Made by a program: the position numbers and the translations under genes. Positions 6,987 through 64,000 of a DNA stretch of 64,000 nucleotides are shown one piece after another. The stretch is from Nautilus pompilius. Taxonomy: Eukaryota > Mollusca > Cephalopoda > Nautilida > Nautilidae. Under the pieces are notes generated by a model. The model searched no databases. It saw only the letters and a list, made by a program, of their open reading frames with translations, and was not told the origin of the DNA. Location: assembly GCA_018389105.1 (NCBI GenBank), contig JACATO010000309.1, positions 62,001 to 126,000 on the forward strand, written 5' to 3'. Position 1 is the first letter of the stretch. Each line of letters starts with the position of its first letter.

Positions 6987-7340
6987 AAATTATGGAGCTT
7001 ATTTAGTGCTGCAGGATCTGATCATTCATTAATGCTTTGAGTAGAGGCACCAATTGTCCATACCAATGAATTTTACAGTATTAAGTTTATTTGCTTCCTT
7101 AGCCATTTAAAGATTCACTTTTTCCCATGTAAACAGATGTGTATAATCCCAAAATACTTCACTTTTGCATGAGTTTACTTTTAATTTGCTTCAGTATATT
7201 TAAAATCTGTAATGGATTAAGGAAGATAAGCTACAAAGGTTATAAAGCCAACCTTGCAGTAAAGCAAAGAATATTATATTTTGTCTTAATGTTTATGGTT
7301 TAATGGAATACATAAATGTATCTCTCTTCTTTTTTTTAAG

Positions 7341-9204
7341 TCTTCGTTTACCACTGTGTTTCTGGCCATGTTTATCATTGGAGTGTCAGGACTGGCCTTT
7401 ATCCTGGGTGGAATAAGAGGTATGTAATAGGTAGATCCGGAATTTTTTCTGCTTTTATTACTGGTGTATATTAAATTGCCACATACACAGGGGCGTAGCT
7501 AGCGTTTGTGCCGCCCAGGGCGGTCATAGAATTTTCCGCCGCCCTAAATAACGTAGAATTTCAAAACCTCCAAAAAATTCATTTTTTATTTATTTTTTTG
7601 AAAAAAAGTACTATTAGAAAATAAAATTATCAAATATATAATGAGAAAATATTGATATTCAATTCAAAATTAATTAGAAGTGACTCACTTCAAGTGAGCA
7701 AATTTCTTTTACAGCAAATTTTAGAAAAACTTTCTTCCTTTCAAAAAACTACCATTAAAAATTGAACGAAAAATTCAGGAAAAAAATAATATCTGGAAAA
7801 ATAGAAACGAAAATACATTATATATGTAACATACTGTCCTGAACTAAATTTGACAACCAAAAAATGCCGCCCTCCAAAACGTGCCGCCGGGCCGGACCGC
7901 CCCTGCCGCCCCCCATTAGCTACGCCCCTGCAGCCGAGGTAGACATATGCTGGTATGTATGTGTACTGCCCTGTGCAGTATAGTTAATATTTACCCACTG
8001 TTACATTATTCCTATGCTGAATGAGCTCTTCTAATCCTATCCAGAACGTCATGAAAAAATAAATAATAAGTTCTCAGTGTTCACACTTTTTTATGCAGTT
8101 TTTTTTCTTTTTCTTTTTCTGCAGATTAAACAATAAAATGTCCAAAAAGCGCACCTACACTGACGCCTTTCTTTGCCATGGCTTTGTGAATTTACATTCT
8201 GGTGGAGAGGATCGGCCACAATGTGTGGTATGTCACAAAGTGTTGACAAATGAAAGCCTCAAGCCATCAAAACTCTCAGCTCACCTCCAGAAGTGCCATC
8301 CAAGTCTTCAAAATGAGAATCAGGCTTATTTTCAGCGCCGGGCTGTAGCACTGAAGAATATCCAGTTCGGTTCATCTGGAATTCAAGCCCAAAAGCTTCA
8401 AGCTGCGGTCGAAGCATCCTACTTTGTTGCATATAAAGTTGCCGAACAACAGAAATGCCACACCCTTGCAGAGAATCTGATTATGCCTTGTGCATACGAG
8501 ATGGTAAGCAAGGTATGTGGGGAGGATCAAGCGAAGAAACTGAGTGCCATATCTCTATCAAACAACACAATCCGCCGACGAGTCGATGACATGGCATCAG
8601 ATATCCTGTCCCAAGTTACAACAGAGATCAAGGAAAGCTCATATAGCAAATTCTCCTTGCAATTTGATGAATCGTGTGACGTAGCCAGTTGTGCTGTTCT
8701 CCTTGGGTTTGTCCATTACGTCCACCAGGACAAGATCAAAGAAGAGTTCCTATTATGCGAGGATCTGCTGACAACCACTAAGGGAGAAGATGTCTTCAAT
8801 CTCATCAACAGTTTCTATACCAAGAACGGATTGGATTGGAACAGCGTTCAACAGGTAGGGAGAGAAAGTCTAAATTAGTATAAATACAATGAATTACATG
8901 GCATATAGTCATACAGTTTTATTTATTGTACAAATAGCTGTAGTGTAGCTAATATTTTGTACAGTTTAATCCATTCATTCTTTTTCTTTCTTCCATCCCT
9001 TTTTTGTTGTTGTTTACTCATTCTTTTTTTCTGTTTATTCTTTTCTCAATTTTTTTTTGTTTTCCTTTTTCACGTTTTCTTTCATAGTTTTTCTTTCTTT
9101 TTTTTCTACATTTTTTGCTTTTCTTTTCCCATTTTCTTATTTTTCCTTTTTATTTTCTCAATTTTTTGTTTCTCTTTTTCCGTTTTTCTTCTTTCTTTCT
9201 TTCT

Positions 9205-9291
<87 letters not shown>

Positions 9292-12200
9292 TTTCTTCTT
9301 CTTCTGCCCAACTGACACAATCTATAATCCAGGTATCTGTCGATGGAGCACCATCGTGATCGTGGATTACGGGGCCTCATACAAGTTGTGATCCAGAAAT
9401 TTCTGTAGATCATTGCATCATTCATCGGTACTCTCTTGGATCGAAAAGCCTGCCTGGTAATCTGAAGTTAGCGTTTGAAGATGTGTTGAAAATAGTCCAC
9501 TTCATCAAGTCCAGGGATGTGAATTCGCGCATTTTCAAGGAGCTGTGCAAAGAAATGGGAGAGCAGTATCAAGTTCTGCTCTACCACACCGATGTTCGCT
9601 GGTTGTCACGAGGCAAGGTTGTACGTCGAGTCATTGAGCTCCGAAAGGCTATTCAAGAATTCCTGGAACAAAAAGGATCTCCTTTTGCTACCAAGTTCAC
9701 TGATAAGGAGTGGCTTGCTCGACTTTGTTACTTGGCCGACATATTTGTGGAGCTGAACAGTGGTAATCTGCAACTCCAGGGCCGAACCACGACTGTCATT
9801 GATGCCCATCAATCTGTGACTGCATTTCTGGGGAAACTGAGACTCTGGATTCGGCACTTGGAGAAAGGAGTGATAGCCCAGTTCCCCACCCTAGACCAGT
9901 TTGTTGAGGAAAATAATCAGGATACTGGATCATTTCTACAGACCATCAACAAAGAGATGAGCGACCATTTGAAGGGGCTTGAAACAAGCATGCATCACTA
10001 CTTTCCTGAGGGTGACCAAGAAACAGCCAGTCTTCAATGAATCATTCATCCCTTCTCTGTACCTGATGAGGCCATTCATGATAATGATTTCCCTGCAAAG
10101 GAGGAGTGGATCACAATGCGAGCCAATGAAGCCTTGAAAATCGAATTCCAAAACCAAAATGCAGATCCTTTTGGATTTCACAACTAGCTGACTCGCCAAC
10201 TCTGTCCAAAAGAGCCTTGAAGTTGTTGGTATCATTCTCAACAACGTATCTCTGCGAGAAGGGGTTCTCAACTGTGCTGGGGATGAAAACAAAAAAGAGG
10301 ACTCACTTGGATGTTGCGAACGATGCCAGGCTGGCACTTTCAACCACGAAACCAAGGATTCCTCAACTAGCTTCAAGCAGGCAACTCCATCCATCCCACT
10401 GATGTTCTTGACATCTTTGGCAATAGTCATTAGAGATGCACAATGTTCAAATACAATAAATAAAAGAATCTCTAGTGTTTTTATTTAGTCATATATATCA
10501 ATGTTGACAACATTTTGTGAAAGGGGTAACATGCTTAATGTGGCATGCTAAATTGGGTAACAAGCTGAAAAAGTTTGGGAACCATTAGTTTAAAGGGATG
10601 ATGATGACTGTCTGTCTCCAGTCCAGTCAGTGATGCACCACAGACTTGGTCTACCCTGTGGCTGTAGGAGGCAGAGAGGCTGGATGCTCACTATTTGACA
10701 TACAGTTTTGATGATATTTATGTTTACTTTGGAAATAAGAATTCCTCAGTGAATCTTTTATTAGTTAGATTGCATTACAATATTAACATTGTATTTAATA
10801 TAATTATATCAAAGAATGGATGGTGGTTCTGTTTTTATATTCTAAGAGAATATTTATACATCATCAACATTTATTTTTAATGTTTCTTTTCATTTGTTTC
10901 CAGATGGTGCCATTGTTCTGGTTGGTGCTCTACTGTTGGGCGGAGTTGACTTGTATTTTGTCATAACCAGTTGTAAAAAAAGAAGTAAGTGAAGTTACAT
11001 TTTCCGTCTCTTTTCACAACATTTAGTTTGTTTGATTTTTATCTGTCAGTGTATATACACACATTGAAATCTGATGAATGATTTTACCTCTGTTTTACTT
11101 ATTTACATTAAATGTATTTTTTAAATAACTTTTTGATATAATTCCAATAGAAGTCTGTGACCATCAGTCAAGTCTACATTTCAAAATGGAATGGAAAGAT
11201 AGTAATAATTTGTTTAAAAAACTAATTAAAGAAAGTGTAAAAAAGTTAAGATTGAATAGAGTTTACTAGTGAGACATTCAACCCAACACCAGACCAATGT
11301 CTTGATTTCACTCCAAAAACATCTATTTTAATTACTTAAAATTCCATTATATCGTCTTCCAGTTGACAAAATTAACACAAAACAACAAGAAATCCTTCAT
11401 TTAGGGTCAACAAATATTTTGTTTCACTTTTTAGATTCCTCTCAGCTTTTGACTAGCAAATACTATTTACAAATTTGTCACGAAGCATAATGATATAATA
11501 AACGGAACTCCTTAATCCGGATTAACCACTAAACCTAATAGAACATTTTATAACAATTAATTTCCAGTTACCTCCAAAGAATATTTAAAATATTCTAGTT
11601 TTTTATAGCTTCGTATTTTACAAATTGTTTTCTTATGGTTTGATTTGGTTATTTAAGTGTAAAAATTTAGTCAGTCTATATGGCGCTCTTTCTTAACATA
11701 GAAACTGTTTACCTTTTTCATCTGATTTTTAAATTAATTGCCTGAGACGAGGAATTTGTCACATGTTGATACACTTCTCACCATATTTGAGTGGTTGGTT
11801 CTTTGTTAAGGGGATGAAATGAGAAAGAACTGGCAGCTTCCTCTTGAATAATATTGAAACAGTTCTTTTTCTTTTCCAAGTATAAGGTGTGTGGTGGCCT
11901 AGCACATTTATCTGGCCTTTATGCAGCAGCACCAATCTAGAGACAAATACTAAATAATTTTTATTATTTGCAGAGGTTTTTTCAAAAATCTGCCCAGATT
12001 CTAAGAAAAATAGGTATGTAACAGTATTTGATAGATGGCTGGCTTCTATGTGTGTTCAAGTTGTTTCTTGCCTTCTTATCTAGCAGTGCATAGTAACATG
12101 ATGCTGAATTCTGGGTTTCTTACACCCACTTTAAAGAATTTTCCTAAAATAAAGGTCTCTCACTGAGCACAGGACTTTATCTATAGCTGCAGTCAGCTTC

Positions 12201-12672
12201 ATTGATTTTACCCTCGAGTAAGGTTTGAAATACGCATTAAATTAGAAAGTAAAGTTTTTAAGACTTCATGTGATATACAAATAAAAATTTTACACAAATT
12301 TCTATAAATAAAGAGTATTATATGATGACTTTATAATAAATAATCTCTCTGACTATCAAGAAAAAATGTTATTATCGACAGTGTAATTATAATAGTACTA
12401 TAGTTGAAGTAGCGTGTGACTAAAGTTGGCTTGTGATATTGTACAGGTTGTAGTCATAATAAGTTGAACATCACAGAAAGCTGAATTTATCTTTCATTTA
12501 TAGATTTTACCATCATCATCACTTTGAAATGGGCTACCGAGTAGGCATTCATTTATTTCCAGAGGAATGTGGCAGCCAAAGTATTTCCACATTTACTCAG
12601 GGTCAGATAAATGTCTGTCAAAATATGGTTTATATGCAGTATTACTGCCATCTTTCACTGTTCATCAAATAA
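7341..12672 (+). CDS. Membrane protein gene, 3' exons (two hydrophobic segments)
   Basis: Four exons with consistent phases were read: 7,341-7,419, 10,904-10,984, 11,974-12,013 and 12,504-12,672 (stop TAA at 12,670). Each internal border has AG before and GTATGT or GTAAGT after. Exon 1 encodes a hydrophobic segment (TVFLAMFIIGVSGLAFILGG). Exon 2 encodes a second one (AIVLVGALLLGGVDLYFVIT) followed by CKKR. Exon 3 is short and lysine-rich. Exon 4 begins with a tyrosine and four histidines and gives about 55 residues. The product would be a membrane protein with a basic cytoplasmic tail, or a hairpin with two spans. The family is not recognised. Upstream exons are not secure; broken Ig-like sequence sits at 6,495-6,986. 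The first intron is swollen by hAT elements. Exons 1-3 are well supported, and exon 4 is tentative because the same place in the right-arm copy reads on in another frame. Confidence 0.6.
7488..7930. mobile_element. Non-autonomous hAT-like element (MITE)
   Basis: The ends are perfect inverted repeats: CAGGGGCGTAGCT at the left and AGCTACGCCCCTG at the right. GC-rich subterminal blocks (repeated GCCGCC) flank an AT-rich core without coding frames. CAGGGG-type termini are typical of hAT elements. I do not see a clean 8-bp target duplication: the flanks read CACATACA and CAGCCGAG. It sits in intron 1 of the membrane-protein gene and is absent from the corresponding right-arm intron. Confidence 0.8.
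8138..10402 (+). pseudogene. Broken hAT transposase, ZBED5/SCAND3-like
   Basis: The first part (8,138-8,854) is an intact 239-codon frame from ATG, preceded by a pyrimidine tract and CAG acceptor. It has a BED-type zinc finger (CVVC ... HLQKCH, about residues 28-55) and the conserved LQFDESCDV segment. It ends at a GTAGGG donor; reading resumes after CAG at 9,332 with VSVDGAPS, the usual hAT D-G-A-P site. The intron holds a long TC repeat. Downstream, a TGA near 9,357 and two frame changes precede a second long frame (9,483-10,040) with VRWLSRG and IDAHQS-type motifs. After further breaks comes the C-terminal dimerisation region with YLCEKGFS (about 10,240-10,402). The native enzyme moves the element by cut-and-paste; this copy cannot encode it. 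It lies in intron 1 of the membrane-protein gene, on the same strand. Confidence 0.9.
9209..9289. repeat. (TC)n microsatellite, about 40 units
   Basis: An uninterrupted TC run inside a longer pyrimidine-rich stretch (about 8,975-9,305). It lies within the apparent intron of the hAT transposase and produces spurious low-complexity reading frames on both strands. Confidence 0.98.
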
Positions 12673-12872
12673 TTTTTCTATTTAGGGGTAACATTGTACA
12701 CCAACATCCTGAATGTGTAGCCACTGTCAGTGACATGCAACATTCTCTGCTGCTGTATCAGCTGAGAATGTCACTTTCCCTGACACCTGAGTATTTGCTC
12801 TTGTATAAACTTTGTAATACTTGCGTGAGTTTATTGATGAAAGCCATTGGCAACAAATTTGAATATAGTTAA
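12567..12872 (+). other. Alternative frame overlapping exon 4, conserved in both arms
   Basis: A 101-codon frame overlaps the tentative last exon. The right-arm copy (59,798-60,112, - strand) continues the exon-4 frame directly into this frame, because it has one extra base just after its ECGS codons and an 18-base in-frame insertion upstream. Either the left copy suffered a frameshift or the region is 3' UTR and both frames are incidental. The product, containing LLPSFTVHQIIFLF, is not recognised. Confidence 0.3.
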
Positions 12873-15800
12873 TCACCTTAGTTGTCACAAATTTGTAGAT
12901 CCCTTGAAAAATGGAAGTCTCTAGTCTTCAAAGATGAGAAACATTTACCTTTTCTATTGTCCTGGTGCACATTGGTAGAGCCAGTTTTCATCTTCAGTCT
13001 GCTATTAAGCACAGCAGATTTGGACCATTTGATGGATGTCTGCCAGTTACATGTTCATCTTGATTAATTAAGGAATTCTCAACTGCATTTGTCATATAAT
13101 ACAGGAAAATGGAGTAGCATGCCATGCATACAGAACACATTTAACTTGGAAAGGCTTGTGGTGGACTGCGTTTGCATCCCTGAACCTGGCAGAGCCCAGA
13201 TAGGAATCCTATTGTGAGTATCCTGATGGCCAATTGAAGGCTAAACAACTGAGACCAACGAAGAGCAGCGATCAAAAGAATACATTCATAAGGAAATCTG
13301 GACATCGTCACTGCTGATGATGTAATGGATTTTAACACTATACAATACACAAAATGCTCCAACTTTTTCTTTTATTAAATGTGATATTAAGAAAAGACGC
13401 AGGATTCAGCATGAAAAGATCACTGATTCTCACCCCCACATAAGAGCAGATAACCTTATCCATAACTAAGGATTACTTTGCATTATCAATTATTTGTAGA
13501 ATGAAAAGGTTTAAGTCACCTTTTGGCAGCATTTTAAATAAAATTTCATGGTTTCATTTTCTCTTTGATTTTATATGATGCACTCAGATGTTGAAAACTG
13601 AAATATTTTGGTGCGCTCTTATTCAGTAATTATTAATTCACCTTTGAGGATATCTCAGCAGCTTCCTAGATAAACTGATCAACAATGCAGAAGTATTGTG
13701 ACATGGATTTACTAATGTATTAAAGATGAAACATTTGCATGCAAATCAAAATTGATCATAAACTTTGACTTTACATTGTTTATTTTGTGTGATGTCTGGA
13801 ATGGTTTAATGCATTTAGTGATGTCATGATATCAGTGAATACTCACTTCTCATTTTTCCTAGTCTCATGACCTTTACACAAATATAATCAGTTTGCTTTT
13901 ATAGTCATGTAAAGTAGAGCGCCATACTAGAAGGATGCCACCTTTAGAATGCTTTCTCTATCATATCACAGTCTGCATTCCATTGGTTTGGATTCAACAA
14001 ACATAAACAGCCATCAGCAAAATGAAGGCTGAATTTACTTCCTTCAGAGAAGGGAAACTGGTTCCATTTAACCAGAGTACAGTTTCCATGAGCGCTATCA
14101 GGCACCAATCTCCCTCTGTGCTATCATGGTTCTAACGGGTGTAGAATACCGGACACAACCAATTCCGCACAGTCGAGCAGGAGGAATGTTACTTTGACCT
14201 GTCACAATGCCTTCAAGACCAACAAGCCCAGGGAGAACTGTTGTATCAAGCCTACTATGTAATGAAATGTGTATCATTGAAGTCAATCCTGCTGTCGCAG
14301 TCCAAGTCAGGTATTTTATGAACTAAAGCAGTCTCTGTCAGAATAACCTGATAATACTGTTAAGCCAGGTAGAGCAGCTAAATTGGTGGCTACATCTGGT
14401 CTGTTACCTAGCTATCATTACTTATTGCTGCTCCTTGATAAGTTGTTGTTGAACTCAGTCCCAGCAGCCCTTCAATCATTATAAAAGCTGCATACCTCCA
14501 GCCTTGTGTTGACAGAGTTGAAGGACCATAGAAGACACTTAATACAAAATAACCTTATCTGGCTGGGACTGTATGCACAGGGCTGTAGCTGAATACTGTA
14601 CCAAACTATCCACATTATTAATGACTACATGTATGAATGGTGCAATTCACGTGTTTCTTGTGGTTTTTCTATCACATTGTAATGAACCTTCAGTTGGAAT
14701 TGTTATGGTAGTGATTGCAGGTTCTTGTACATGGCAAACACATCCATTACTTAGGTTTTTAGTTGCTTCCTTTTGTCAAGTAGATCAGTTTGTGCTGAAC
14801 TAAGTCTAAGTAGCCTTTAAAATGCTCACTCCAAAAATTATGTGAAACTGGATTTACAACATTCTGCATATTTAGATTTCAGGTAAATATTATATGCTTA
14901 ATGATATTTCTTGAACGAAAGCTTCACAGGAGAATCAAGTACCTTCAGACCAGCATTGTTTCTACAGGCTGGGAGTGGCAATACTTCCATTGTCTTCATG
15001 TTGTAGGTTGTCTTCACTCATTTTTTTATTATTTGTATTTCAATAAGCTCGATAGAAATGTACATTGTGCTGTTTTAACTTAAATTCTATACTTTTCTTC
15101 CTATACATTTGGTTTATTAAATAAATGGGATTACTGTTACCAGCCTTATCTATTTTTGTCTTGGGTACTAGAAGGGAACTTTCTCAATCAGTGCACTATT
15201 TGGAGTCTGGTTTAAATATGATTAATTAATTTACAAAAAAACCTTTGTCCAAATCATGACTGTTCAGGAAAACATCAGCTGCTGGCTAGTAGTACATGTA
15301 CACATCCATCCTTCCAGCAGCAGGATTGTTGTATAGGAGCATAAATCAGCTGGATTTCCTTTCAGTAATTGGCGGTCAATTTGGGGCCAGAAGCTTAGCC
15401 TGATGTTCAGATCAGCTACTGTACAAAGGAGCAGCAGGCAAAAGATGGGTATGTAGATGAATGAGGAAAAGCCACATTGTGGAGGTCATCAAACCCTGTT
15501 GGTCAGTTGTGGTAGTGTGAACACTCATGGTTCTTCACAGGAACGCAGCAATTTGTTAATGATGCTGATGAGAGATTTGTTCCTTTCCTTTTTCATGAAA
15601 CTGAAAAAACGAAGTTGGATCTGTTAGGAGAGCGACTGTTGCCCATGAGGCCTGATGCTGCAGGAACTGACAGCCATGGCCTGAGAGACTGAAGAGGAAG
15701 AAAAACCAAATGTAAAAGATAGTTTTGCTCTATCTAAGATACTTAAACATCAGAAAGATGTATAAATCAGTCTCAACATCGTTTTTTATTTTATTTTCTA

Positions 15801-16893
15801 CTAATTATCCATGACCATCACATGAAGAAATCAGCCAAACACGTTGGCCACTTTAGACCATTTCTAGCTGGATCTTGTGCTATTATCCATCATTCGTCCA
15901 TTCACATCTGTTAATTAACAGGTGTTTATCTCATTTTTGCTTTCAGCTGTTTTTATTTGTTGAAGCTCACTGATGTAACTTTCCCTCAAAAGACAAAATA
16001 TAATCTAAAGTTTCTGTCGTTGCATTGATCAGCTCTGTTTCTGTAACCAAAATTATTCACCAGTACGTGGTCAGAATATTCCAGTATTCACAAGTGGTCC
16101 AGTTTGAAGATATGAGAAGAAATGCAATTCAAAAAATAAATAGCAACAAAAGAATTGTTTTCACTAACATTGAGAAAATGAGAAAATTCCAGCTCTCTCC
16201 ATCTTTGATAATACAGTGTCTTTCTTTGCATCAAACTCCTCTGCCACATGTTGATGATGAGGGGATAGAAACTGTTCACTGTGGAATTGTAAACTCCTAC
16301 TACCAGCTGCATCCATAATTGGTATAGCTTTTGTAAGCCAGGCATATTGGAATTGTGAAAACCTATAGCTGATGAAGAATATGTTTAACATACCTTTATT
16401 GAAGTAACAACAAGTTTATTGTTGTTGTATAATAATTGAACTCAAAACTGGAATTTACCAGTATCACATCAAAAGTGTGATGTTCAATATATAATAGCTA
16501 TGATTCAACATGGCAACTTGGCTATCAAGTGTGTAACTCAATAATACCAGCTGTGTTTTATGTGAAGGGAGCATTAACTGTTAGGGAAATGAGGCTTATT
16601 ATTATGCATTGTCTTTTATCCTGTCCTGTTGTACTGTGATTTATGTTGAAGTGTAGATGAGCAGGAGTATCATTCTGACACTAAAAATGACAAAAAGACA
16701 TAACTGCAAAGAGCCAAACAGTTCAGGTGCAAAGCAAATGATTTTATTTTGAATATGGATACCAACTGAAGGTCAAGGGTTAGTTTCCTGTCAAATTAGA
16801 AATAATTAAGCTAATAATGAACCGATGTTTCAGCAATGATTCACAATCCTCATCCTCAGGTTTCTGTACTGTTGTGAAGTCAAACAATATTAA
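12873..16893. other. Left-arm B interval with no recognised gene
   Basis: Matches the reverse complement of about 54,729-59,797. Short open frames here (14,098-14,286, 16,025-16,318 and others) have no recognised similarity, and in the other arm they are interrupted or shifted. A 1-kb block found in the right arm is missing here near 15,125. Confidence 0.6.
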
Positions 16894-17619
16894 TTTGTGA
16901 ATGATTCTACAGCCCTGTTGTTTTCATCTTAAATCCAGTAGAAATAGCACATCTGAATCTCTCTACTTGTGTGACAAATATAGTATTCTATAAAATAAAT
17001 TAAACTGTTTCATAAAAATACTGCCTAAAGAAATGTTGCCAAAAAGATGAATGTTTATGGTGCTGTACATTTGTAGTTTTAGGTCACTCTGGCTGAAAAT
17101 AATTCTTTAGCAGTTTAGAGCAAGATAATAAAACGATTGGGGTAGAAAGCCACTGATCCATTAAAATTGAATCTGCTGTTGATACCCATCCAGAGGCAAT
17201 CCCTGATCTGTGATCTTTTCTTCTCGGTTCTCATTGCTGACTTTCCATCAAATTTCACGTCATTAGAGGCATCTTCAGTCAGAAGTGATCTCCGTGTCAG
17301 TGCCATCCATCACATTGGAATCAAAATAGACCTTAACAGGTTTTCAAGCCGTCAGTGGTAATTCATTTTAAAATGGGCATCTTTTTGTTGTTTTCCTCAA
17401 TGCTCTTCTTCACTTCCAAACTCATATCTGACTTTCAGTTGCAGAAGAATACCGATGAATGGTATTGCAGGTCTCAGGAACCCTAAGATTTGATGGCTCC
17501 AGATTCTGTAAAATTAACTATTTAACCTCTACGAATATAAAACAGGAATCAGTTCTGTGTTGAGTTTTAAGTTTCAGTTCTTCTCTTTTTTTCACGTTTC
17601 TCATTTTTAAATAAAATAT

Positions 17620-17661
<42 letters not shown>
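17620..17661. repeat. (AAT)n microsatellite, long allele
   Basis: About 14 AAT units. It occupies the same position in segment A as the shorter runs at 5,566 and 53,963 on the opposite strand. Confidence 0.95.
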
Positions 17662-19318
17662 TGAGCATAATTTAAAAAGATCCCAAAAATATTGGATCAA
17701 ATAGAAAACTGAATCCTGTGCCTACGAATGACGGCCTCTCCAATAATTTTCGTCCTTCTAAATTCGGGACATTTTCCTGAAATGATTCCTGGAAGAAACG
17801 AAACCACTTTTATAAAACTGCTATTTGTCACTGATTCTCAGAACCCAACAGGCAGAATTCTTTGTTTCCAATAGAATTCAGGAAGTGATTTGGCGAAAAA
17901 TGTACAAAAATAATCTGTGATGTTCTGTTATTATTTGTCATTTATTTATATTGATGCTGATAAAATATTCTCAGGTCTCAGTTTAAAATACGTAGAGTTA
18001 TTTCCCTTGGTAGTTTAATTTGTGTAGTTGCGAATTAGTTTACAATGGAAAGAAACAACGTTGACACAAAAACAAACAATTAAGGAATTCGGTATAATTC
18101 TCTGAAATACGGGTAGATGAGCGATGTTTGCGGGGTTTGTGCCCCCTAAATACTCAGTATCCCTGTGATTTCCGGAGGCTGGTTCTTTTCGTCGGTAGAA
18201 AACGAATTCTGGTAAAGAAACCAAAAAAAACAAAAAAAACTGAATGTTTTTTTGATATAAATTAGTGAAGTCTGTATATAGATATTGAAGATTTTACTGA
18301 TGAAGATATCGTTTGTTCCGTGTTTATTTTCTGGTCTTGAGATTCTAAAATTGTAGTCGCGGTACGATATGTATTAATGTCGAGTAGTTGTTAGGCCTGT
18401 TTACTGCCTGTAAAACCGTTATATTACTACGCCTGACGGAGATGGATGGTAAAATCAGCCATTGACCGGGTGTAATCTGATTGTGAATTAAGCTTGTTAC
18501 TGTTTTCTCTCAAACGATTGTAAACAATATGACTGAGCTTTATTCCATAAAGAATTAACTTCATCCACTGTTTCTGTTATGTGTTGTTTGTTCTTAAGGA
18601 GAAGCGAGAGACGGGAACAAGGACTGGGGAGGTGCCATGTGATCTAGAACGCCATTTGTATGAGTGAGGTAAAAACTCTGGTGTAATTAACTGGAACTGT
18701 CCGTGATGGCGATTAAGAGCAAACTCTTCAGTGCCAAACAAGGAAAATGAATGAATAGAGAAGAGGAAGAGACGAAAGTGGAAGAAGGGAAGAAGAAGGA
18801 GGGAAAAAGGAAGCGACAGGAAAAGTCAAGGCTAGGATGGTAATAGGGTTAAAAATGGGAACAAAGGAAACTTTTGTATATTGATGGAGAAATCTCCGAA
18901 CAGTCGCTGGTAGCCAGTTGTCATACATTGAGGGAAATTCCATTGATAACCACTTTATTCCACCATGATAAAGAATGGTGTCCACCTGGAGAACACGATG
19001 GACCAGCAGCTACTGTTCAAGTTGACCAAGAATCAAAGTTGAAATTCGTGTAAACGATGATAATCTAAGAAGACAAAAATGATGGAAAACATCAAAGATG
19101 TTAATAACGATGTTATGCTGGGGGGTTTGGGCTCCTCTCAAAAATGCCAGTCTTTGGTTACAGAGAGAGCAAGAACTTACCTGATTCTCCAAAGTGACAA
19201 AATCCTTCAGTGTCTCGTGTGAGAGCTTTATCGCAAATTGAAGGTTGATGTTTGTGTTTCTAATGATTCTAAATAGTGGTCTGGGCCAGATAATCCTATT
19301 CCTCCCTTTACAAGGGCA

Positions 19319-50600: not shown

Positions 50601-52003
50601 TTTACAAAAAATTGCTATTTGTATGGTAAAGAAATGAATAAAAACTGGAAGGTCTACATTTGATGTTGTATATCAAATAATGTTTGCCTAAACCCAGGTC
50701 AATTAGTATTTATTTCTCTCCCCTCTCTACACTCACATCAACTTTGGGATACTGTACAGTGTACATTCTTTTGGATATCACATAAAAAAAGTTTGTTGAT
50801 AAAGTCCAAAATATATTGTTTTTGTGAAAATATGTCCCATTAATGTCACAAATTTATAATAATCATTTGTCAAACAGCTCATTGTATTTCTAAGACACTA
50901 AAAGAAAAAAAAACATGCAACATAATTTTCTGGTATATAATCTATTATCTTAAGGATGATCTCTTTCATACCCGTTTCTGCTGAAATGTGATCTACAGCT
51001 ATCTGAAATGTCTTAGTATTTTCTGATCATTTTAGCTTTTTAGTCCAAGTCACAACCCTAACTTTGATACAGTAACACAATGTCATGAATATATTGTATA
51101 GCCCACCAATGCAGTTGCTTCAAAATTATAAATTCATCAAGTGGCATATCAAATTTTTCTCTGTCAGCAAAGTGCTTCACAATACCATCACAAGTATTTT
51201 CATCATCACTCATAGCAAAAATGTGGGCATTCTACAAAACCAAAATCCTTCTCAAGATGGCAAAGGTTCGTGAAATTGCTTGACGTGCACTGCTGTTCAT
51301 TAACTAAGATGGCCACCACACTTGTTAGAAGCAGTCATTTCTTTAGGACTGTTCCAAAATTTTTGTGATTTTGCAATGAAACAATAGCTGATTAGTACAC
51401 AGAATAAGAAAAAACGTTATCAAGTTATCAATCAAATCAGTATATCATTTTCAAATTCCAATTATTCAAATGGCTACAGATACTGATTTGAAGCAAGATG
51501 GGCACCATGTACAACATGGACAAATGAAAGACATCATCATCTGAGTTTAAGAAGATCAGTGAAATCTCTCTTGATTTCACTCAGAACTAAAGAAATCAGC
51601 ACAAACTACAACTAAATGCAATGCATTCCTCCAAATATTCCTACACATTTCACAAACTTTGAACCTCTTAATATCAGAATCTAGATTAGATGTTTTTCTT
51701 GAAATGAATACATTTTCTAAGGATCAAATGATTAAAAACCAACTGAGAATATTATTTATATAGTACAATTTACTTATGCTCCATAACCTCATCTTTCAGA
51801 GCTTCCAAGACAGCAACATATCAAAGATTGTTTTGTTTTAGCATTTGTAACTGAGAAGAAACTGTTCGCATACAGAATCTCACCTGAAATCTAACCTTCA
51901 AAATGCATCAGGTGTCAATGTCTTATTACAAACAGCGTGTAATTGGCCAGAGAGATTTCGAGATGCCAACAGTACCGAAAATGACCGCCATCGAGGTGGC
52001 TCG

Positions 52004-52288
52004 TTGATTGTAAGAGAAATTAGCTGTTATGGCAAGGCTGGTTTTCATGTGTTTCAGATCAGCCCCATGGCTGGTTTATCGTACATGGTGAAGATCCTTA
52101 GACGTTCACTGAAACAAAACGGTGCAGCTTTTGGAAATAACTTCATTCCCATGGATGATAAAGTCAACCGCAGCCTCATTCTCCAGACCTTAACAAATCA
52201 ACCGCATCTGGAACATTCTTTAGGCTACCGTTGCAAGATGCCCTGTGTGCCCCACAAACCTCACAGGAGCTTGGTGATGCCCTTGTAA
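52004..52288 (+). other. Unidentified open frame, copy 3
   Basis: Counterpart of 3,474-3,884 with very few residue changes up to the GYRCKMPC segment. A one-base difference then shifts the end and moves the stop downstream. Upstream the frame stays open for about 45 codons more but has no ATG. Confidence 0.25.
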
Positions 52289-53962
52289 AGGGAGGAGTAG
52301 GATTATCTGGCCCAGACCACTATTTAGAATCATTAGAAACACAAACATCAACCTTCAATTTGCGATAAAGCTCTCACACGAGACACTGAAGGATTTTGTC
52401 ACTTTGGAGAATCAGGTAAGTTCTTGCTCTCTCTGTAACCAAAGACTGGCATTTTTGAGAGCTGCCCAAACCCACCCAGCATAACATCGTTATTTAACAT
52501 CTTTGGTGTTTTCCATCATTTTTGTCTTCTTAGATTATCATCGTTTACACGAATTTCAACTTTGATTCTTGGTCAACTTGAACAGTAGCTGCTGGTCCAT
52601 CGTGTTCTCCAGGTAGACACCATTCTTAATGATGGTGGAATAAAGTGGTTATCAATGGAATTCCCCTCAATGTATGACAACTGGCTGCCAGCGACTGTTC
52701 GGAGATTTCTCCATCAATATACAAGAGTTTCCTTTGTTCCCATTTTTAACCCTATTTACCATCCTTAGCCTTTGACTTTTCCTGTCGCTTCCTTCTTATT
52801 CCCTCCATTTGTCGCAACTTCCGTTGTCGTCTTTACTCTCTCTGCATCAACAGTTTCCTTGTTTTGGCACTGAAGAGTTTGCTCTTAATCGCCATCACGG
52901 ACAGTTCCAGTTAATTACACCAGAGTTTACTTACCTGGCAACAAATGGCGTTCGCTGACCACGCCATTGTTCCCCTCTCCCAGTTCGCTGGCCGTCCTCC
53001 TCTCTTCCAAGAGAACAAACAGAACATAACAGAAACAGCAGTGGATGAAGTTAATTCTTTATGGAATAAAGCTCAGTCATATTGTTTACAATCGTTTGAG
53101 AGAAAACAGTAACAAGCTTAATTCACAATCAGATTACACCCACCCGGCCAATGGCTGATTTTACCATCCATCTTCTCCGTCACGCGTAGTAATATAACGG
53201 TTTTACAGGCAGTAAACAGGCCTAACAACTACTCGCCATTAATACATATCGTACCGCGACTACAATTTTAGAATCTCAAGACCAGAAAATAAACACGGAA
53301 CAAACGATATCTTCATCAGTAAAATCTTCAATATCTATATACAACAGACTTCACTAATTTATATCAAAAAAACATTCAGTTTTTTCTTGTTTTTTGGTTT
53401 CTTTACCAGAATCCGTTTTCTACCGACGAAAAGAACCAGCCTCCGGAAATCACAGGGATACTGAGTATTTAGGGGGCACAAACCCCGCAAACATCGCTTC
53501 ATCTACCCGTATTTCAGAGAATTATACCGAATTCCTTAATTGTTTGTTTTTGTGTCAACGTTGTTTCTTTTCCATTGTAAACTAATTCGCAACTACACAA
53601 ATTAAACTACCAAGGGAAATAACTCTACGTATTTTAAACTGAGACCTGAGAATATTTTATCAGCATCAATATAAATAAATGACAAATAATAACAGAACAT
53701 CACAGATTATTTTTGTACATTTTTCGCCAATACACTTCGTGAATTCTAGTGGAAACAAAGAATTCTGCCTGTTGGGTTCTGAGAATCAGTGACAAATAGC
53801 AGTTTTATAAAAGTGGTTTCGTTTCTTCCAGGAATCATTTCAGGAAAATGTCCCGAATTTAGAAGGACGAAAATTATTGGAGAGGCCGCCGTCATTCGTA
53901 GGCACAGGATTCAGTTTTCTATTTGATCCAATATTTTTGGGATCTTTTTAAATTATGCTGAA

Positions 53963-53987
53963 TTATTATTATTATTATTATTATTAA
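53963..53987. repeat. (ATT)n microsatellite, intermediate allele
   Basis: About eight units, at the position matching 5,566 and 17,620 in the other segment A copies. Confidence 0.9.
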
Positions 53988-56472
53988 ATATTTTATATAA
54001 AAATGAGAAACGTGAAAAAAAGAGAAGAACTGAACTACTTAAAATCAACACAGAACTGATTCCTGTTTTATATTCGTAGAGGTTAAATAGTTAATTTTAC
54101 AGAATCTGGAGCCATCAATCTTAGGGTTCCTGAGACCTGCAATACCATTCATCGGTATTCTTCTGCAACTGAAAGTCAGATATGAGTTTGGAAGTGAAGA
54201 AGAGCATTGAGGAAACAACAAAAAGATGCCCATTTTAAAATGAATTTACCACTGACGGCTTGAAAACCTGTTGAGGTCTATTTTGATTCCAATGTGATGG
54301 ATGGCACTGACACGGAGATCACTTCTGACTGAAGATGCCTCTAATGACGTGAAATTTGATGGAAAGTCAGCAATGAGAACCGAGAAGAAAAGATCACAGA
54401 TCAGTGATTGCCTCTGGATGGGTATCAACAGCAGATTCAATTTTAATGGATCAGTGGCTTTCTACCCCAATCGTTTTATTATCTTGCTCTAAACTGCTAA
54501 AGAATTATTTTCAGCCAGAGTGACCTAAAACTACAAATGTACAGCACCATAAACAATCATCTTTTTGGCAACATTTCTTTAGGCAGTATTTTTATGAAAC
54601 AGTTTAATTTAATTCATAGAATACTATATTTGTCACACAAGTAGAGAGATTCAGATGTGCTATTTCTACTGGATTTAAGATGAAAACAACAGGGCTGTAG
54701 AATCATTCACAAATTAATATTGTTTGACTTCACAACAGTACAAAAACCTGAGGATGAGGATTGTGAATCATTGTTGAAACATTAGTTCATTATTAGTTTA
54801 ATTATTTCTAATATGACAGGAAACTAACCCTTGACCTTCAGGTGGTATCCATATTCAAAATCAAAACATTTGATTTAAACCTGAACTGTTTGGTTCTTTG
54901 CAGTCATGTCCTTTTGTCATTTTTAGTGTCAGAATAATACTCCGGCTCATCTGCACTTCAACATAAATCACAGTACAACAGGACAGGATAAAAGACAATG
55001 CATAATAATAAGCCTCATTTCCCTAACAGTTAATGCTCCCTTCACATAAAACACAGCTGGTATTATTGAGTTACACACTTGATAGCCAAGCTGCCATGTT
55101 GAATCATAGCTATTATATATATTGAACATCACACTTTTTGTTGTGATACTGGTAAATTCCAGTTTTGAGTTCAATGATTATACAACAACAATAAACTTGT
55201 TGTTACTTCAATAAAGTTATCTTACACCTATTCTTCATACATCTATAGGTCTTCACAATTCCAATATGTCTGGCTTACGAAAGCTATACCAGTTATGGAT
55301 TCAGCTGGTAGTAGTAGTTTAAAACTCCACAGTGAACAGTTTCTATCCCCTCATCATCAACATGTGGCAGAGGAGTTTGATGCAAAGAAAGCCACTGTAT
55401 TATCAAAGATCGGAGAGAGAGCTGGAATTTTCTCATTTTCTCATTGTTACTGAAAACAATTCTTCTGTTGCTATTTATTTTTTGAATCACATTTCTTTTC
55501 ATATCTTCAAACTGGACCACTTGTGAATACTGGAATATTCTGACCACATGTACTGGTGAATAATTTTGGTTACAGAACAGAGCTGATCAATGCAAAGACA
55601 GAAACTTTAGATTATATTTTGTCTTTTGATGGATAGTTACAGCAGTGAACTTCAACAAATAAAAACAGCTGTCAGCAAAAATGAGATAAACACCTGCTAA
55701 TTAAAAGATGGGAATGGACCAATGATGGATAATAGCACAAGATCCAGCTAGAAATGGTCTGAAGTGGCCAATGTGTTTGGCTGATTTATTCATGTGATGG
55801 TCATGGATAATTAGTAGAAAATAAAAAAAAACAATGTTGAGACTGATTTATACATATTTCTGATGTTTAAGTATCTTAGATGGAGCAAAACTATCTTTTA
55901 CATTTGGTTTTTCTTCTTCTTCAGTCTCTCAGGCCATGGCTGTCAGTTTCTGCAGCATCAGGCCTCATGGGCAACGGTCGCTCTCCTAACTGATCCAACT
56001 TCCTTTTTCAGTTTCATGAAAAAGAAAAGGAACAAATCTTTCATCAGCATCATTAACAAATTGCTGCATTCCTGTGAAGAACCATGAGTGTTCACACTAC
56101 CACAACTGACCAACAGGGTTTGATGACCCTCCACAATGTGGCTTTTCCTCATTCATCTACATACCCATCTTTTGCCTGCTGCTCCTTGGTACAGTAGCTG
56201 ATCTGAATACCAGGCTAAGCTTCTGGCCCCAAAATTACTGAAAGGAAATCCAGCTGATTTATGCTCCTATACAACAATCCTGCGACTGGAAGGATGGATG
56301 TGTACATGTACTACTAGCCAGCGGCTGATGTTTTCCTGAACAGTCATGATTTGGACAAAGGTTTTTTTGTAAATTAATTAATCATATTTAAACCAGACTC
56401 CAAATGGTGCATTGATTGAGCAAGTTCCCTACTAGTACCCAAGACAAAAATAGATAAGGCTGGTAACAGTAA

Positions 56473-57470
56473 TCCCACCCACAATGCTTGACTCAACAGA
56501 CGTTTTGAACAAAGTTGCCACCATTGGCACAACATTTTGATTGGTACATTTGAATAATTTCCTATGCAAATCAGCTGTCACCACTTTTCGAAATTAAGTG
56601 AAAAACAGCAATTTGCATTCACAAGTGCTTTTGTAATTTTTTTTTACATTCATCATCATGAATAAATATAAAGGCAAGAATCTTTCAATGTCCTCTTGCT
56701 GATCGACTAACTTACATTACTGTTTGTAATTAACTTGAACAATGAGTACTACAAACACTGCTTCAGTGGTACAGTTTTAGGCAGAATGTAAGGAAAGTTG
56801 TAGCATAGCATCTGAATTTAGTGTAATTTGACTTTGAAAAACATAATACAGTTCTGAAAATAATTTGTCTATAGATTGGTCAGATAGATTTCACTGTACA
56901 CTTTTCAATGGATTACACAAAAAAGGTTCAAAACATCGCAAGAGGTATTTGAATAAACCTTAAATCCATCAATTATGAAGCAAATCTCTGTGAAATTGAA
57001 GAATATTGTGATAGCTCTTTGTAAAAATCCCTTCATTTTGTATCAAGTCATCGGACAAAATTAAGATCCAAACCCTATACTTTCACATTTATACCACCAT
57101 TTTCTGTTGTAAAGGCCATAAATTTGCTACTTTATATGGTCTGGAGAATATTACGAGGAGGAACCAAGCCGCAGGATGTAATCTGACTACTATTGTGCTG
57201 CATATGAGATGTTACATTTACAGATTTTCTTGAGGAGTGTAAAATCAGATACAAGTGATACAGTTTGATGGGAACTTATTACTAATGTGTTAGTATGTGC
57301 AGTAATACAGTATGATGTGTACTAAACAGGTCTAGTGTGTTAGTAGATGCATAGCTGGAATGTGTGTTACTTGAAAAAAGACTAAAGCAGTTAGTACCAA
57401 GGAAAGCATGACCAGGTGACATGTTACCATAGAAACAGCTTTTTGCATTACAACTTAACTACAGTAAATT
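56473..57470. mobile_element. About 1-kb insertion specific to the right arm
   Basis: The flanks on both sides match left-arm sequence near 15,125 without a break, but the intervening 1 kb has no left-arm counterpart. No coding frame, terminal repeat or target duplication could be made out, so an insertion here and a deletion in the left arm are both possible. Confidence 0.4.
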
Positions 57471-60400
57471 TATTTAATGAATCAAATGTATAGGAAGAAA
57501 AGGATAGAATTTAACTTAAAACAGCACAATGTACATTTCTAGCGAACTTATTGAAATACAAGTGAATTAAGAAAATGAGTGAAGACAACATACAACATGA
57601 AAACAATGGAAGTATTGCCACTCCCAGCCTGTACAGACAATGCTGGTCCGAAGGTACTTGATTCTCCTGTGAAGTTTTCGCTCAAGAAATATCATTAAGC
57701 ATTTCATATTTACCCGAGATGTAAATATGCAGAATGTTGTAAGACCAGTTTGACATAATTTGTTGACCGACCATTTTAAAGGCTACTTAGACTCAGTTTA
57801 GCACAAACTGATCTACTTGACAAAAGGAAGCAGCTAAAAACCTAAGTAATGGATGTGTTTGCCATGGACAAGAACCTGCAATCACTACCATAAAAATTCA
57901 AAATGAAGGTTCATTACAGTGTGATAGAAAAAACACAAGAAACACCTGAATTGCACCATTCATACATGTAGTCATTAATAATGTGGATAGTTTGGTACAG
58001 TATTCAGCTACAGCCCTGTACATACAGTCCCAGCCAGATAAGGTTATTTTGTATTAACCTCTTCTATGGTCCTTCAACTCTGTCAACACAAGGCTGGAGG
58101 TATGCAGCTTTTCTACTGATTGAAGGGCTGCTGGTACTCAGTTTAACAACAACTTATCAAGGAGCAGCAATAAGTAACCATACCTAGGCACAGACCAGAT
58201 GTAGCCACCAATTTAGCTGCTCTTCCTGGCTTAGCAGTATTATCAGGTTATTCTAACAGAGACTGTTTAGTTCATGAAAGACCTGACTTGGACGGCAATG
58301 ATACACATTTCATTACATAGTAGGCATGATACAACAGTTCTCTCTGGGCTTGTTGGTCTTGAAGGCATTGTGACAGGTTAAAGTAACAATCCTCCTGCTA
58401 GACTGTGCGGAATTGTTTGTGTCCGGTATTCTACACCCGTTAACACCATGATAGCACAGAGGGAGATTGGTGCCTGATAGCGCTCATGTAAACTGTACTC
58501 TGGTTAAATGGAACCAGTTTCCCTTCTCTGAAGGAAGTAAATTCAGCCTTCATTTTGCTGATGGCTGTTTATGTTTGTTGAATCCAAACCAATGGAATGC
58601 AGACTGTGATATGATAGAGAAAGCATTTTAAAGGTGGCATCCTTCTAGTATGGCGCTCTACTTTACATGACTATAAAAGCAATCTGATTCTTTTTGTATA
58701 AAGGTCATGAGACTAGGAAAAATGAGAAGTGAGTATTCACTGATATCATGACATCACTAAATGCATTAAACCATTCCAGACATCACACAAAATAAACAAT
58801 GTAAAGTCAAAGTTTATGATCAATTTTGATTTGCATGCAAATGTTTCATCTTTAATACGTTAGTAAATCCATGTCACAATACTTCTGCATTGTTGATCAG
58901 TTTATCTAGGAAGCTGCTGAGATATCCTCAAAGGTGAATTAATAATTACTGAATAAGAGAGCACCAAAATATTTCAGTTTTCAACATCTGAGTGCATCAT
59001 ATAAAATCAAAGAGAAAATGAAACCATGAAATTTTATTTAAAATGCTGCCAATATGTGACTTAAACCTTTTCATTCTACAAATAATTGATAATGCAAAGT
59101 AATCCTTATTTATGGATAAGGTTATCTGCTCTTATGTGGGGGGTGAGAATCAGTGATCTTTTCATGCTGAATCCTGCGTCTTTTCTTAATATAACATTTA
59201 ATAAAAGAAAAAGTTGGAGCATTTTGTGTATTGTATAGTGTTAAAATCCATTACATCATCAGCTGTGACGATGTCTAGATTTCCTCATGAAATATCAATG
59301 TATTCTTTTGATCGCTGCTCTTCGTTGGTCCCAGTTGTTTTGCCTTCAATCGGCCATCAGGATACTCGCAATAGGATTCCTATCTGGGCTCTGCTAGGTT
59401 CAGGGATGCAAATGCATTCCACCACAAGCCTTACCAAGTTAAAGGTGTTCCGTATGTACAGCATGCTACTCCATTTTCCTGCATGATATGACAAATGCAG
59501 TTGAGAATTCCTTAATTAATCATGATGGACATGCAACTGGCAGACATCCATCAATTGCTCCAAATCTGCTGTGTTTAACAGCAGGTTGAAGATGAAAACT
59601 GGCTCTACCAATGTGCATCAGGTCAATAGAAATGGTAAATGTTTCTCATCTTTGAAGACTACAGATGCCATTTTGCAAGTAATCAACAAATGTATGCCAA
59701 CTAAAGTGATGAACTATATTCAAATTTGTTGCCAAATGGCTTCTATCAATAAACTCACCCAAGTATAACAAAGTTTATGCAAGCCAATGCTCAGGTGTCA
59801 GTATAGTGACATTCTCAGCTGATATAGCAGCAGAGATTGTTGCATGTCACTGACAGTGGCTACACATTCAGGATGTTGGTGTACAATGTTACCCCGAAAT
59901 AGAAAAATTATTTGATGAACAGTGAAAGATGGCAGTAATACTGCATATAAACCGAATTTTGACAGGCATTTATCTGACTTTGAGTAAATGTGGAAATACT
60001 TTTTGCTGCCACATTCCTCTGGAAACACATTATTTTCTGAAAATAAATGAATGCCTACTCGGTAGCCCATTTCAAAGTGATGATGATGATAAAATCTATA
60101 ATTCAAAGACAAATTCAGTTTTCTGTGTGTTGCTCAAATTATTATGACTACAACCTGTACAATATCTCAAGCCAACTTTAGTAACACGCTACTTCAACTA
60201 TAGTAGTAATATAATTACACAGACAATAATAACGTTTTTTCTTGATAGTCAGAGATTATTTACTATAAAGTCATCATATAATCCTATTTATTCATAGAAA
60301 TTTGTTTAAAAATTTTATTTGTATATCACATGAAATCTTAATAACTTTGTAATTTATAAATTTAATGCGTATTTCAAACCTTACTCGAGCGTAAATTCAG

Positions 60401-62011
60401 TGAAGCTGACTGCACCTATAGATAAAGTCCTGTGCTCAGTGAGAGACCTTTATTTTAGGAAAATTCTTTAAAATGGGTGTAAGAAACCCAGAATTCAGCA
60501 TCATGTTACTATGCACTGCTAGATAAGAAGGCAAGAAACAGTGAACACACATATAGAGCCAGCCATCTATCAAATACTGTTACATACCCATTTTTCTAAG
60601 AATCAGGGTAGATTTTTGATAAAACCTCTGCAAATAATAAAAATTATTTAGTATTTGTCTCTAGATTGGTGCTGCTGCATAAAGGCCAGATAAATGTGCT
60701 AGGCCACAACACACCTTATACTTGGAAAAGAAAAAGAACTGTTTCAATATTATTCAAGAGGAAGCTGCCAGTTCTTTCTCATTTCATCCCCTTAACAAAG
60801 AACCAACCACTCAAATATGGTGAGAAGTGTATCAGCGTGTGACAAATTTCTCCTCTCTGGTAATTAATTTAAAAATCAGATGAAAAAGGTAAACAGTTTC
60901 TATGTTAAGAAAGAGCGCCATATAGACTGACTAAATTTTTACACTTAAATAACCAAATCAAACCATAAGAAAACAATTTGTAAAATACGAAGCTATAAAA
61001 AACTAGAATATTTTAAATATTCTTTGGAGGTAACTGGAAATTAATTGTTATAAAATGTTCTATTAGGTTTAGTGGTTAATCCGGATTAAGGAGTTCCGTT
61101 TATTATATCATTATGCTTCGTGACAAATTTGTAAATAGTATTTGCTAGTCAAAAGCTGAGAGGAATCTAAAAAGTGAAACAAAATATTTGTTGACCCTAA
61201 ATGAAGGATTTCTTGTTGTTTGTGTTAATTTTGTCAACTGGAAGACGATATAATGGAATTTTAAGTAATTAAAATAGATGTTTTTTGGAGTGAAATCAAG
61301 ACATTGGTCTGGTGTTGGGTTGAATGTCTCACTAGTAAACTCTATTCAATCTTAACTTTTTTACACTTTCTTTAATTAGTTTTTAAACAAATTATTACTA
61401 TCTTTCCATTCCATTTTGAAATGTAGACTTGACTGATGGTCACAGACTTCTATTGGAATTATATCAAAAAGTTATTTAAAAATACATTTAATGTAAATAA
61501 GTAAAACAGAGGTAAAATCATTCATCAGATTTCAATGTGTGTATATACACTGACAGATAAAAATCAAACAAACTAAATGTTGTGAAAAGAAGGAAAATGT
61601 AACTTCACTTACTTCTTTTTTTACAACTGGTTATGACAAAATACAAGTCAACTCCGCCCAACAGTAGAGCACCAACCAGAACAATGGCACCAGCTGGAAA
61701 CAAATGAAAAGAAACATTAAAAATAAATGTCGATGATGTATAAATATTCTCTTAGAATATAAAAACAGAACCACCATCCATTCTTTGATATAATTATATT
61801 AAATACAATTGTTAATATTGTAATGCAATCTAACTAATAAAAGATTCACTGAGGAATTCTTATTTCCAAAGTAAACATAAATATCATCAAAACTGTATGT
61901 CAAATAGTGAGCATCCAGCCTCTCTGCCTCCTACAGCCACAGGGTAGACCAAGTCTGTGGTGCATCACTGACTGGACTGGAGACAGACAGTCATCATCAT
62001 CCCTTTAAACT

Positions 62012-62131
62012 GTCAGTGGCAGAGGCAGGATAACTTTCTTGCAATTTTCTGAGAAAAATAATGAAATATTAGTACTGAAAATAATAAATAGTAGTATCAT
62101 TTGATTTCCAAACATTAATCATAACAGCACT

Positions 62132-62163
<32 letters not shown>

Positions 62164-63665
62164 TCCCTACATCACAGCATGTATGTAGAGTCAGTACCAG
62201 AAACAATTATGGAAATAGAAAAAAAAAATACAAACTATAGACGTAAAATGTAAATGACATGTGACAGAATCTTATCTCATCTACAAACATGAAATCCTCC
62301 AAAGTACAGCCATGTCTTGATACTGTGCAGTGTGACTCCACACCTGCAAAATGATTATTAAAGTATAAGCAGGGACATCAATGCAGTGTGATGAATGTGA
62401 GGTGATAGCATGGCTTCTGGGAAGGAATCAACATGAGGCAAGCATGTAATGGCATGCACTTCCTTAGTTCTTCCTTAAAAGGAATCAAAATACACCTTTT
62501 GTCTTCGCATCATGACTGATGCATTATCTGAGCCAAAAAAAAACAATTTTCCCAATGGTATATTATTTTTAATCTATTTATCATCAATGATATTGAAAAT
62601 ATTTTCTTCGGTTGAGCTATCATCTCCACGCCAGAAAGCATACACCACTGGATATCAATGGAAACCTCCATCACTGTTGCTCCCATCAGTACTTAAATAG
62701 AATGGACGTACCTTTTGTTTATCTTCTAAACACCATGCACCGATGCCACTTTAGAGTCTGGAAACATTTTCTTGAAAAAAGGTTTGACATGCTCGGATGG
62801 TGAAAGAGGCTGGTTGTTTCATCAAAAAACGAATGAATAAAACCTCTGAATTTGTAACTAAATCCTGATTGTCAGTTTTTTTTGCTGCAAGAAATGATGA
62901 AATATTTTAACTTGTAGATGTTTCTTTTGCATGTCCACATGGTTTTTTGTATACAAATGTTTCCAACAGTCATCTTTGCCGCTTTGAGCAAAATGCACTT
63001 TGCACAGCATACAAAACGCATGGTTAACTCCAAGATGTGATTACTTCATGAACCACCACTCATTGCTGTACTATTTTATACCTCTGCAGAATACAAGGTT
63101 TTTTGTTGATAATTTGGACTACATTACATGTTTCACCATTTTGAAGGTGAAATGCATCATGGGATATGTTATTCATTTACATTATTTTTTATGTAAAATC
63201 ATTACACCTAATACCAGAGGTATTCTAGGAACAAGGAGTAATGGTTATGTGAGCTCCACTCAGTGGTTCTTTGTTAATTTACTAGCTTTTGACAATATAA
63301 AGTCTTAAAGCATTTAAGGATTTTAAATAGTAATGAGGGAAACAGTTGTTGGCAGTGTTAGGGCAAAATTGTACCTTGTGATATGTCATATGACACTAAA
63401 AATGATGAATGATGTAATGTTTTAAAAAATAATATTATTTAATAAGGCCATCTTAATAGTGGAATATGGTCTTATAAATTGTAAATATAGCTGAGTTTTG
63501 ATTGAACATTCCTACTGTTATGGAGGTATGATATAAACGATCTCCAGTCAACCATGACATAAGGGATCATAATCAAAATGAAAAATAGGAGGTCTTGTTA
63601 CATCATATTGATGAAGCACTGCATTTTAAAAGGAGAAATTCCTAAATGCACACATTTTCCCCTCT
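62012..63665. other. Right-arm-specific intron 1 sequence
   Basis: It replaces the hAT block of the left arm between the same flanks. Three short frames (62,512-62,700, 62,612-62,803 and 63,000-63,308, + strand) are not recognised. No terminal repeats were identified. It may be original intron lost from the left arm or a separate insertion. Confidence 0.45.
62131..62162. repeat. (AAT)n microsatellite
   Basis: About ten uninterrupted units inside the right-arm-specific intron block. Confidence 0.95.
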
Positions 63666-64000
63666 AAGTAGTCTATGCAGTAATATAATATATACCCATA
63701 ATAAAAGCAGAAAAATTCCAGTTCTACTTGTTGCATACCTGTTAATGCAACAGGATAAATGTCAGTCCTGACACTCCAATGATAAACATGGCCAGAAACA
63801 TACAGTGGAAAACAAAGACTTAAAAAAGAGAAAAGAGATACATTTATGTATTCCATTAAAGAATAAACAATAATGCAATAAGACAAAATATAATATTCTT
63901 TGCTTGAATGCAAGGTTGGCCTTTTAACCATTGTAGTTTATCTTCCTTAATCCATTACAGATTTTAAATATACTGAAGCACATTAAACTAAGCCCATGCA

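Follow-up and report, generated by a model that had tools for sequence, protein, structure and literature searches.

Inverted arms on a Nautilus pompilius contig are probably parts of a multicopy cluster of immunoglobulin-like genes with one variable exon

We analyzed a window of 64,000 nucleotides of the Nautilus pompilius genome, by which we mean the whole stretch C300:62001-126000 of a 1.6-Mb contig (C300) in an assembly of 727.6 Mb and 2558 contigs; a window coordinate is the C300 coordinate minus 62000, and C300:1-256000 was read. Self-alignment of the window reveals a left arm, copy B (7166..23952, arm orientation minus, with homology extending to about 25652), and a right arm, copy C (47622..64000, plus), which match each other in inverted orientation in three blocks: 15126-23952 with 47622-56477 (92.9% over 8961 columns), 10587-15126 with 57468-62011 (94.5% over 4578 columns), and 7166-7477 with 63682-64000 (86.3% over 322 columns). 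The length of these matches excludes chance. The self-alignment gives no right-arm counterpart for 7.5-10.59 kb of the left arm. Inside B and absent from C, at 8063-10402, is an element whose frame weakly resembles a BED finger, scoring under the Pfam cut-off; by eye we take the element to be hAT-like, and it includes a (TC)n run at 9190-9289. The self-alignment also yields a third copy, A (3..6330, plus), at 95.5% over 4566 columns and 88.9% over a further 1831; since A has the orientation of the right arm, A and B form a second inverted pair.

A sequence-only reading of the window had proposed an inverted duplication whose right arm runs to the window's end, with a different Ig-like gene in the spacer, and had suggested self-alignment as a check. 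That alignment does reveal real, diverged inverted arms, and the repeat does reach 64000, but the structure is not an isolated pair: copy A is an extra copy in the window, the unit repeats along C300, the spacer recurs in other units, and the right arm continues past the window, with C300 2-24074 matching 112698-136796 in inverted orientation at 97.7%. Similarly, an Ig-like gene does lie between the arms, but the spacer from 28.2 kb onward is the rest of C's own unit.

Alignment of C300:1-256000 resolves units in alternating orientation over about 180 kb: U0 at the start of C300 (minus), U1 at about 12.8-46.8 kb (plus), U2 at 68.3-55.9 kb (minus), U3 at 72.6-87.65 kb (plus), U4 at about 124-90.2 kb (minus), U5 at about 126-164.5 kb (plus), and part of a U6 reaching 181.8 kb (minus). 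A long unit spans about 34 kb or more and carries five exons, E1-E5. Copy A is the head part of U2, copy B is U3, and copy C is the head part of U4, whose tail (28229..47622, minus) makes up most of the spacer; most of this tail (C300 90229-109622) recurs in U5 (143.4-159.7 kb) and in U1. Several other features lie in the spacer. A Pogo/Tigger-like transposase with two open frames (HTH_Tnp_Tc5 and DDE_1) and a G+C content above that of its surroundings occupies 26681-28111, and reverse-transcriptase fragments of a LINE-like element lie on the minus strand at 31271-33019, in a stretch common to U5. Long open frames with no family assigned are found at 35466-37218, immediately upstream of E5, within a stretch of U4 (C300 97.2-99.5 kb) that has no match in U5 and is likely a recent insertion, and a small local inverted repeat pairs 37710-38101 with 39110-39501 (94% over 393 columns). 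Searches of the window against Rfam and for tRNAs returned no match.

In 500-base segments, pairs of units are between 82 and 100% identical, and the closest pair differs from one segment to the next, a pattern that fits repeated exchange among the unit copies; the copies appear to exchange sequence, a possibility that the sequence-only reading had raised for the arms. A 1.3-kb repeat is found at 22671..23958, where the intron-1 DNA of U3 passes into head-upstream DNA, and again in U4 at 47622..48912. Because this repeat flanks U5's E1 on both sides in inverted orientation and in U3 bridges intron-1 DNA and E1-upstream DNA, we attribute the arrangement of U3 to recombination between inverted repeats. 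The DNA that spans the right boundary of B (23700-24700) recurs in unbroken form at nine further sites, and likewise upstream of U5's E1.

The exon map comes from a retrocopy elsewhere in the genome. Searching the genome with the E3 peptide of the window gives 45 matches on 21 contigs, fragments included, one of which (C592:1539059) sits in an intronless frame of 268 aa, broken near its start, that encodes two extracellular domains followed by a transmembrane segment and a short tail. We term it a retrocopy because its likeness to the 3' end of another family member, on C1010, extends to L041:4017; with its 3' untranslated stretch it covers L041:1785-4017 (C592). Aligned to C300, it resolves into five exons with canonical splice sites, and the exons are assigned as follows: E1 to the 5'UTR and start codon, E2 to the signal peptide, E3 to the distal Ig-like domain (Ig1), E4 and E5 to the first and second halves of the second extracellular domain, and E6 to the transmembrane tail. 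In U4, all on the minus strand, E1 lies at 52935..53122, E2 at 45681..45738, E3 at 42586..42864, E4 at 41497..41606 and E5 at 34994..35207. The same alignment places E1 of U2 at 4546..4733 (minus) and a broken E1 of U3 at 18487..18594 (plus), in which the match is confined to the first 108-111 bases and the start codon present in the other copies is gone. The arms therefore carry the 5' exon of the Ig gene, which copies A and C have in intact form and copy B in broken form. The 3' exons of a membrane-protein gene that the sequence-only reading had placed in each arm were not found in the right arm; Pfam searches returned no families in six frames of the right arm over 48001-63002, with chosen ORFs covered in the left arm and the remaining spacer, and nothing in the two minus frames searched over 37001-52001. 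A coding-potential screen of ORFs conserved between units gave no clear genes, and small exons escaped that screen.

Joined, E1-E5 give a stop-free reading frame of 231 aa in both U4 and U5, the U4 copy lying within the window. U1 is damaged, with one base inserted in E4 and one deleted from E5, and in the retrocopy mapping E3 and E4 were not found in U2, and in U3 only the broken E1 was found. The genome search finds E6 at two places, the retrocopy and C1010:17993-18163, and no E6-like sequence was found on C300:1-256000. In the stretches scanned after E5 there is no hydrophobic exon common to U1, U4 and U5, with U5 alone having two hydrophobic frames. In U1, U2, U4 and U5, 14 further residues can be read past E5 to a stop in the retained intron, and AATAAA or ATTAAA follows this stop 273-299 bases on. 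C1010, read for every exon but E2, carries E1, E3, E4, E5 and E6 in one orientation, E6 lying 19.6 kb beyond E5. Near its start the E3 of C1010 lacks one base relative to the other copies, and the gene is at best a candidate for an intact one. With E6 missing from C300:1-256000 and the E3 of C1010 shifted, no undoubtedly intact E1-E6 gene was found.

The Ig-fold assignment is weak, being based on a match of E3 to Pfam Ig_3 (E 3.9e-4, 21.3 bits) that falls below the cut-off of 30. Ig domains have as their motif paired cysteines with a core tryptophan, and E3 in the printed copies reads ..LTCKY...LEWFR...CWKC.., in which the cysteines may pair. The retrocopy ORF matched no Ig family in Pfam up to E 1, a PDB search gave T-cell-receptor chains at a non-significant E of 0.2-0.9 together with short repeat-protein matches, and an AlphaFold2 model made without an alignment was uninformative (pLDDT 45.8).

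A genome search with E1 returns 24 matches, that is, 22 full-length copies on 13 contigs plus the retrocopy and the broken copy of U3. Ten of the full-length copies are identical at 100%, 11 at 99% and one at 95%. Neighboring E1 copies on the same contig form 10 pairs, six of them opposed (four on C300, including the broken U3, one on C1722 and one on C1195) and four like-oriented (C1536, C160, C603 and C1722), where the members of the C1536 pair are separated by 33 kb and those of the C160 pair by 35 kb. Two contigs, C773 and C2491, are tandem arrays of a 3.27-kb unit containing E3. This unit joins the equivalent of C300 145761-148087 (the end of intron 2, E3 and the start of intron 3) to an inverted piece, 152535-151542, derived from between E4 and E5. 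In the parts of the arrays that were read there are nine copies of E3, and E1, E2, E4 and E5 were not found; 3.2 kb of C773 lie outside these parts, where the genome search places another E3. The array copies are 94.8-98.7% alike, and of the six E3 sites on C773, four have an open frame across the full query and two are disrupted. As a donor of U5's E3 the arrays were rejected, because the copies read do not have its distinctive central block, which C1010 has.

Between U4 and U5, 27 of 30 amino-acid differences fall in E3, and this exon differs at 37/285 bases (13%) against 33/959 (3.4%) in introns and flanks (p 2.5e-8); for U1 and U5 the counts are 28/285 in E3 and 42/958 in flanks (p 0.001), and for U1 and U4 they are 12/285 and, in introns, 11/977. 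The remaining exons together differ less than the flanks tested, with 3/574 differences in E1+E2+E4+E5 of U4 and U5 against 60/2897 in the flanks of E1, E2 and E4 (p 0.009), and 6/573 in the non-E3 exons of U1 and U5 against 78/2693 in flanks without those of E5 (p 0.008). The E5 flanks in pairs with U1 or U4 and the E2 flanks in pairs with U2 were left out as inflated by structural breaks. E2 of U1 and U5 differs at 4/62 bases, above its own flanks. The excess of E3 divergence over flanks is absent for U4 against C1722 and among the array copies, and is not clear for C1010 against U5.

At eight loci E5 is 93-100% identical to the window's copy where the E3 of the same contig is 71-97% identical (E5/E3 of 99/97 on C984, 100/76 on C1536, 99/73 in U5 of C300, 97/72 on C1921, 97/71 on C603, 93/72 on C234, 94/90 on C1722 and 94/80 on C1010). 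This list omits U1 (92/90, damaged), the damaged copies on C160, C1981 and C603 (8526), and the E5 copies without a paired E3 (U2, C1985, C1195 and C1536:5755). U5's E3 is separated from twelve other E3s by 25-33 replacement and 3-6.5 silent changes, and the pooled pN/pS for E3 is 1.84 (78 pairs); by parsimony on 13 unique E3s, changes at the three codon positions number 31, 32 and 25, which is not significant (p 0.19). Furthermore, E3 copies are mosaic: U5 has one block in common with C1010 and another with U1, and a PHI-type permutation gives p 0.011 over 39 sites. Across some 3 kb, seven substitutions distinguish U4 from C984, and four of them lie within ten bases of E3. Import of tracts into E3 by conversion could account for much of its pattern.

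We consider it probable that the arms are the heads of neighboring units, U3 and U4, in an undescribed, recombining multicopy cluster of Ig recognition genes with one variable exon, E3. The units would have multiplied through segmental duplication, and recombination between inverted copies, among others at the 1.3-kb repeat, would have given rise to their mixed order. Conversion together with purifying selection may keep the constant exons E1, E2, E4 and E5 alike, and E3 may have been diversified by selection and short conversion tracts. A recognition role is suggested because one outer Ig exon varies while the rest of the gene is near-constant, and the predicted products may possibly be secreted where E6 is absent. 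The E3 arrays (3.27 kb) might, in addition, act as a donor library from which short conversion tracts rewrite E3 of the E1-E5 genes in the germ line or even the soma, with inverted units as further partners, which would provide a mollusc with a repertoire of Ig domains made by copy-and-paste; we regard this extension as very doubtful.

The same units might instead be a graveyard of fragments, in which the E1-E5 units that lack E6 are dead or decaying and the differences in E3 come from relaxed constraint or from chance import, by conversion, out of a diverged copy, with no selection for novelty. The missing E6 on C300:1-256000 and the lack of a shared hydrophobic exon after E5 in U1, U4 and U5 would agree with this, as would the damage to U1, U2 and U3, the stops in some E3 copies and the nearly even codon-position counts of E3. 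Relaxation alone, however, cannot push an exon past its own introns in divergence, and in U4 and U5 E1+E2+E4+E5 differ less than the flanks tested. Chance import by conversion may still be at work. We hold the graveyard to be rather unlikely, though it is the rival we take most seriously. A reading of the locus as a stand-alone pair of inverted arms with a unique spacer between them, acting mainly through hairpin formation or spacer inversion, draws on the long inverted arms at 92.9-94.5% identity and is extremely improbable, given the third copy in the window, the repetition of the spacer in other units, and the fact that arms and spacer belong to the same gene unit.

A cluster of this kind could also be mimicked by the assembly, if alleles or collapsed repeats had been falsely joined in inverted orientation in a PacBio/Illumina hybrid. 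C300 begins inside the cluster, many family members are on short contigs (e.g., C773 of 19.6 kb and C2491 of 14.2 kb), the 24-kb inverted pair is 97.7% alike, and the assembly described in PMC8257504, if it is the same as this one, came from a hybrid, merged procedure. Against such an artefact, the units of C300 lie several per cent apart, each with its own insertions and losses, which bears out the sequence-only reading that the copies have diverged enough to be real. In addition, the DNA across the A/B head-to-head junction (6250..8000) is whole at 98% on C603 and C1722, which argues against a one-off mis-join, and opposed E1 pairs recur on C1722 and C1195. We judge an assembly origin to be quite unlikely.

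As a kind, the favored cluster of recombining Ig-like genes resembles known diversified recognition families. Alr genes of Hydractinia are clustered and have several Ig-type domains, a variable distal part and a membrane anchor; by description they are like the Nautilus genes in their clustering, in their putative Ig-type domains with a variable distal part, and in the transmembrane segment and tail of the retrocopy, and possibly of C1010, and differ in that the copies on C300:1-256000 are without E6. In Dscam-type arrays, alternative Ig exons stand in tandem between constant exons of one gene. The tandem single-Ig-exon copies with splice sites on C773 and C2491 are similar, but the parts of these contigs that were read have no constant exon, and their unit is a rearranged piece. 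The Sp185/333 proteins of sea urchin have, to our knowledge, no Ig domains. Their genes are described in PMC5103432 as clustered and similar, with segmental duplications, proposed gene conversion and an assembly problem. By description the Nautilus copies share this clustering, segmental duplication, proposed conversion and difficulty of assembly, whereas here units next to each other frequently face opposite ways and there is damage in several copies. The FREPs of the snail Biomphalaria glabrata form a multigene family whose proteins have one or two Ig domains each and a fibrinogen domain (PMC7588048). The Nautilus genes are likewise a mollusc multigene family with Ig-type domains, but the retrocopy has no fibrinogen domain and ends in a transmembrane segment and tail, and the 20 Fibrinogen_C matches in the genome all fall outside C300 and the other contigs on which E1, E3 or E5 was found; membership in the FREPs therefore fails. 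Among the titles of the literature found, none names this family, and a term search of the article on the Nautilus genome (PMC8257504, main text) does not return the word "immunoglobulin".

If expressed, the genes would constitute a fast-changing Ig recognition family in the Nautilus lineage. The cluster joins three traits, namely a gene body that is nearly constant apart from a single variable Ig exon, a mixed inverted duplication that would keep the copies recombining, and separate arrays of E3 only, and it opens a direct test of whether a mollusc diversifies Ig domains by conversion. More distant relatives are present as well: the plus strand of C300 has a remoter paralogue of the Ig gene at 186086-186388, 187922 and 191042, comprising Ig1 and the two parts of the second domain, and C591:781325-826917 is a single stretch with distant relatives of both E3 (38-52%) and E5 (44-52%), forming a second, older cluster. 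The genome also carries two genes of seven mollusc hemocyanin domains, a number of units that fits cephalopods. Finally, the genome has 117 matches to mitochondrial COX1 on many contigs, many with internal TGA, which are apparently numerous nuclear copies of mitochondrial DNA.
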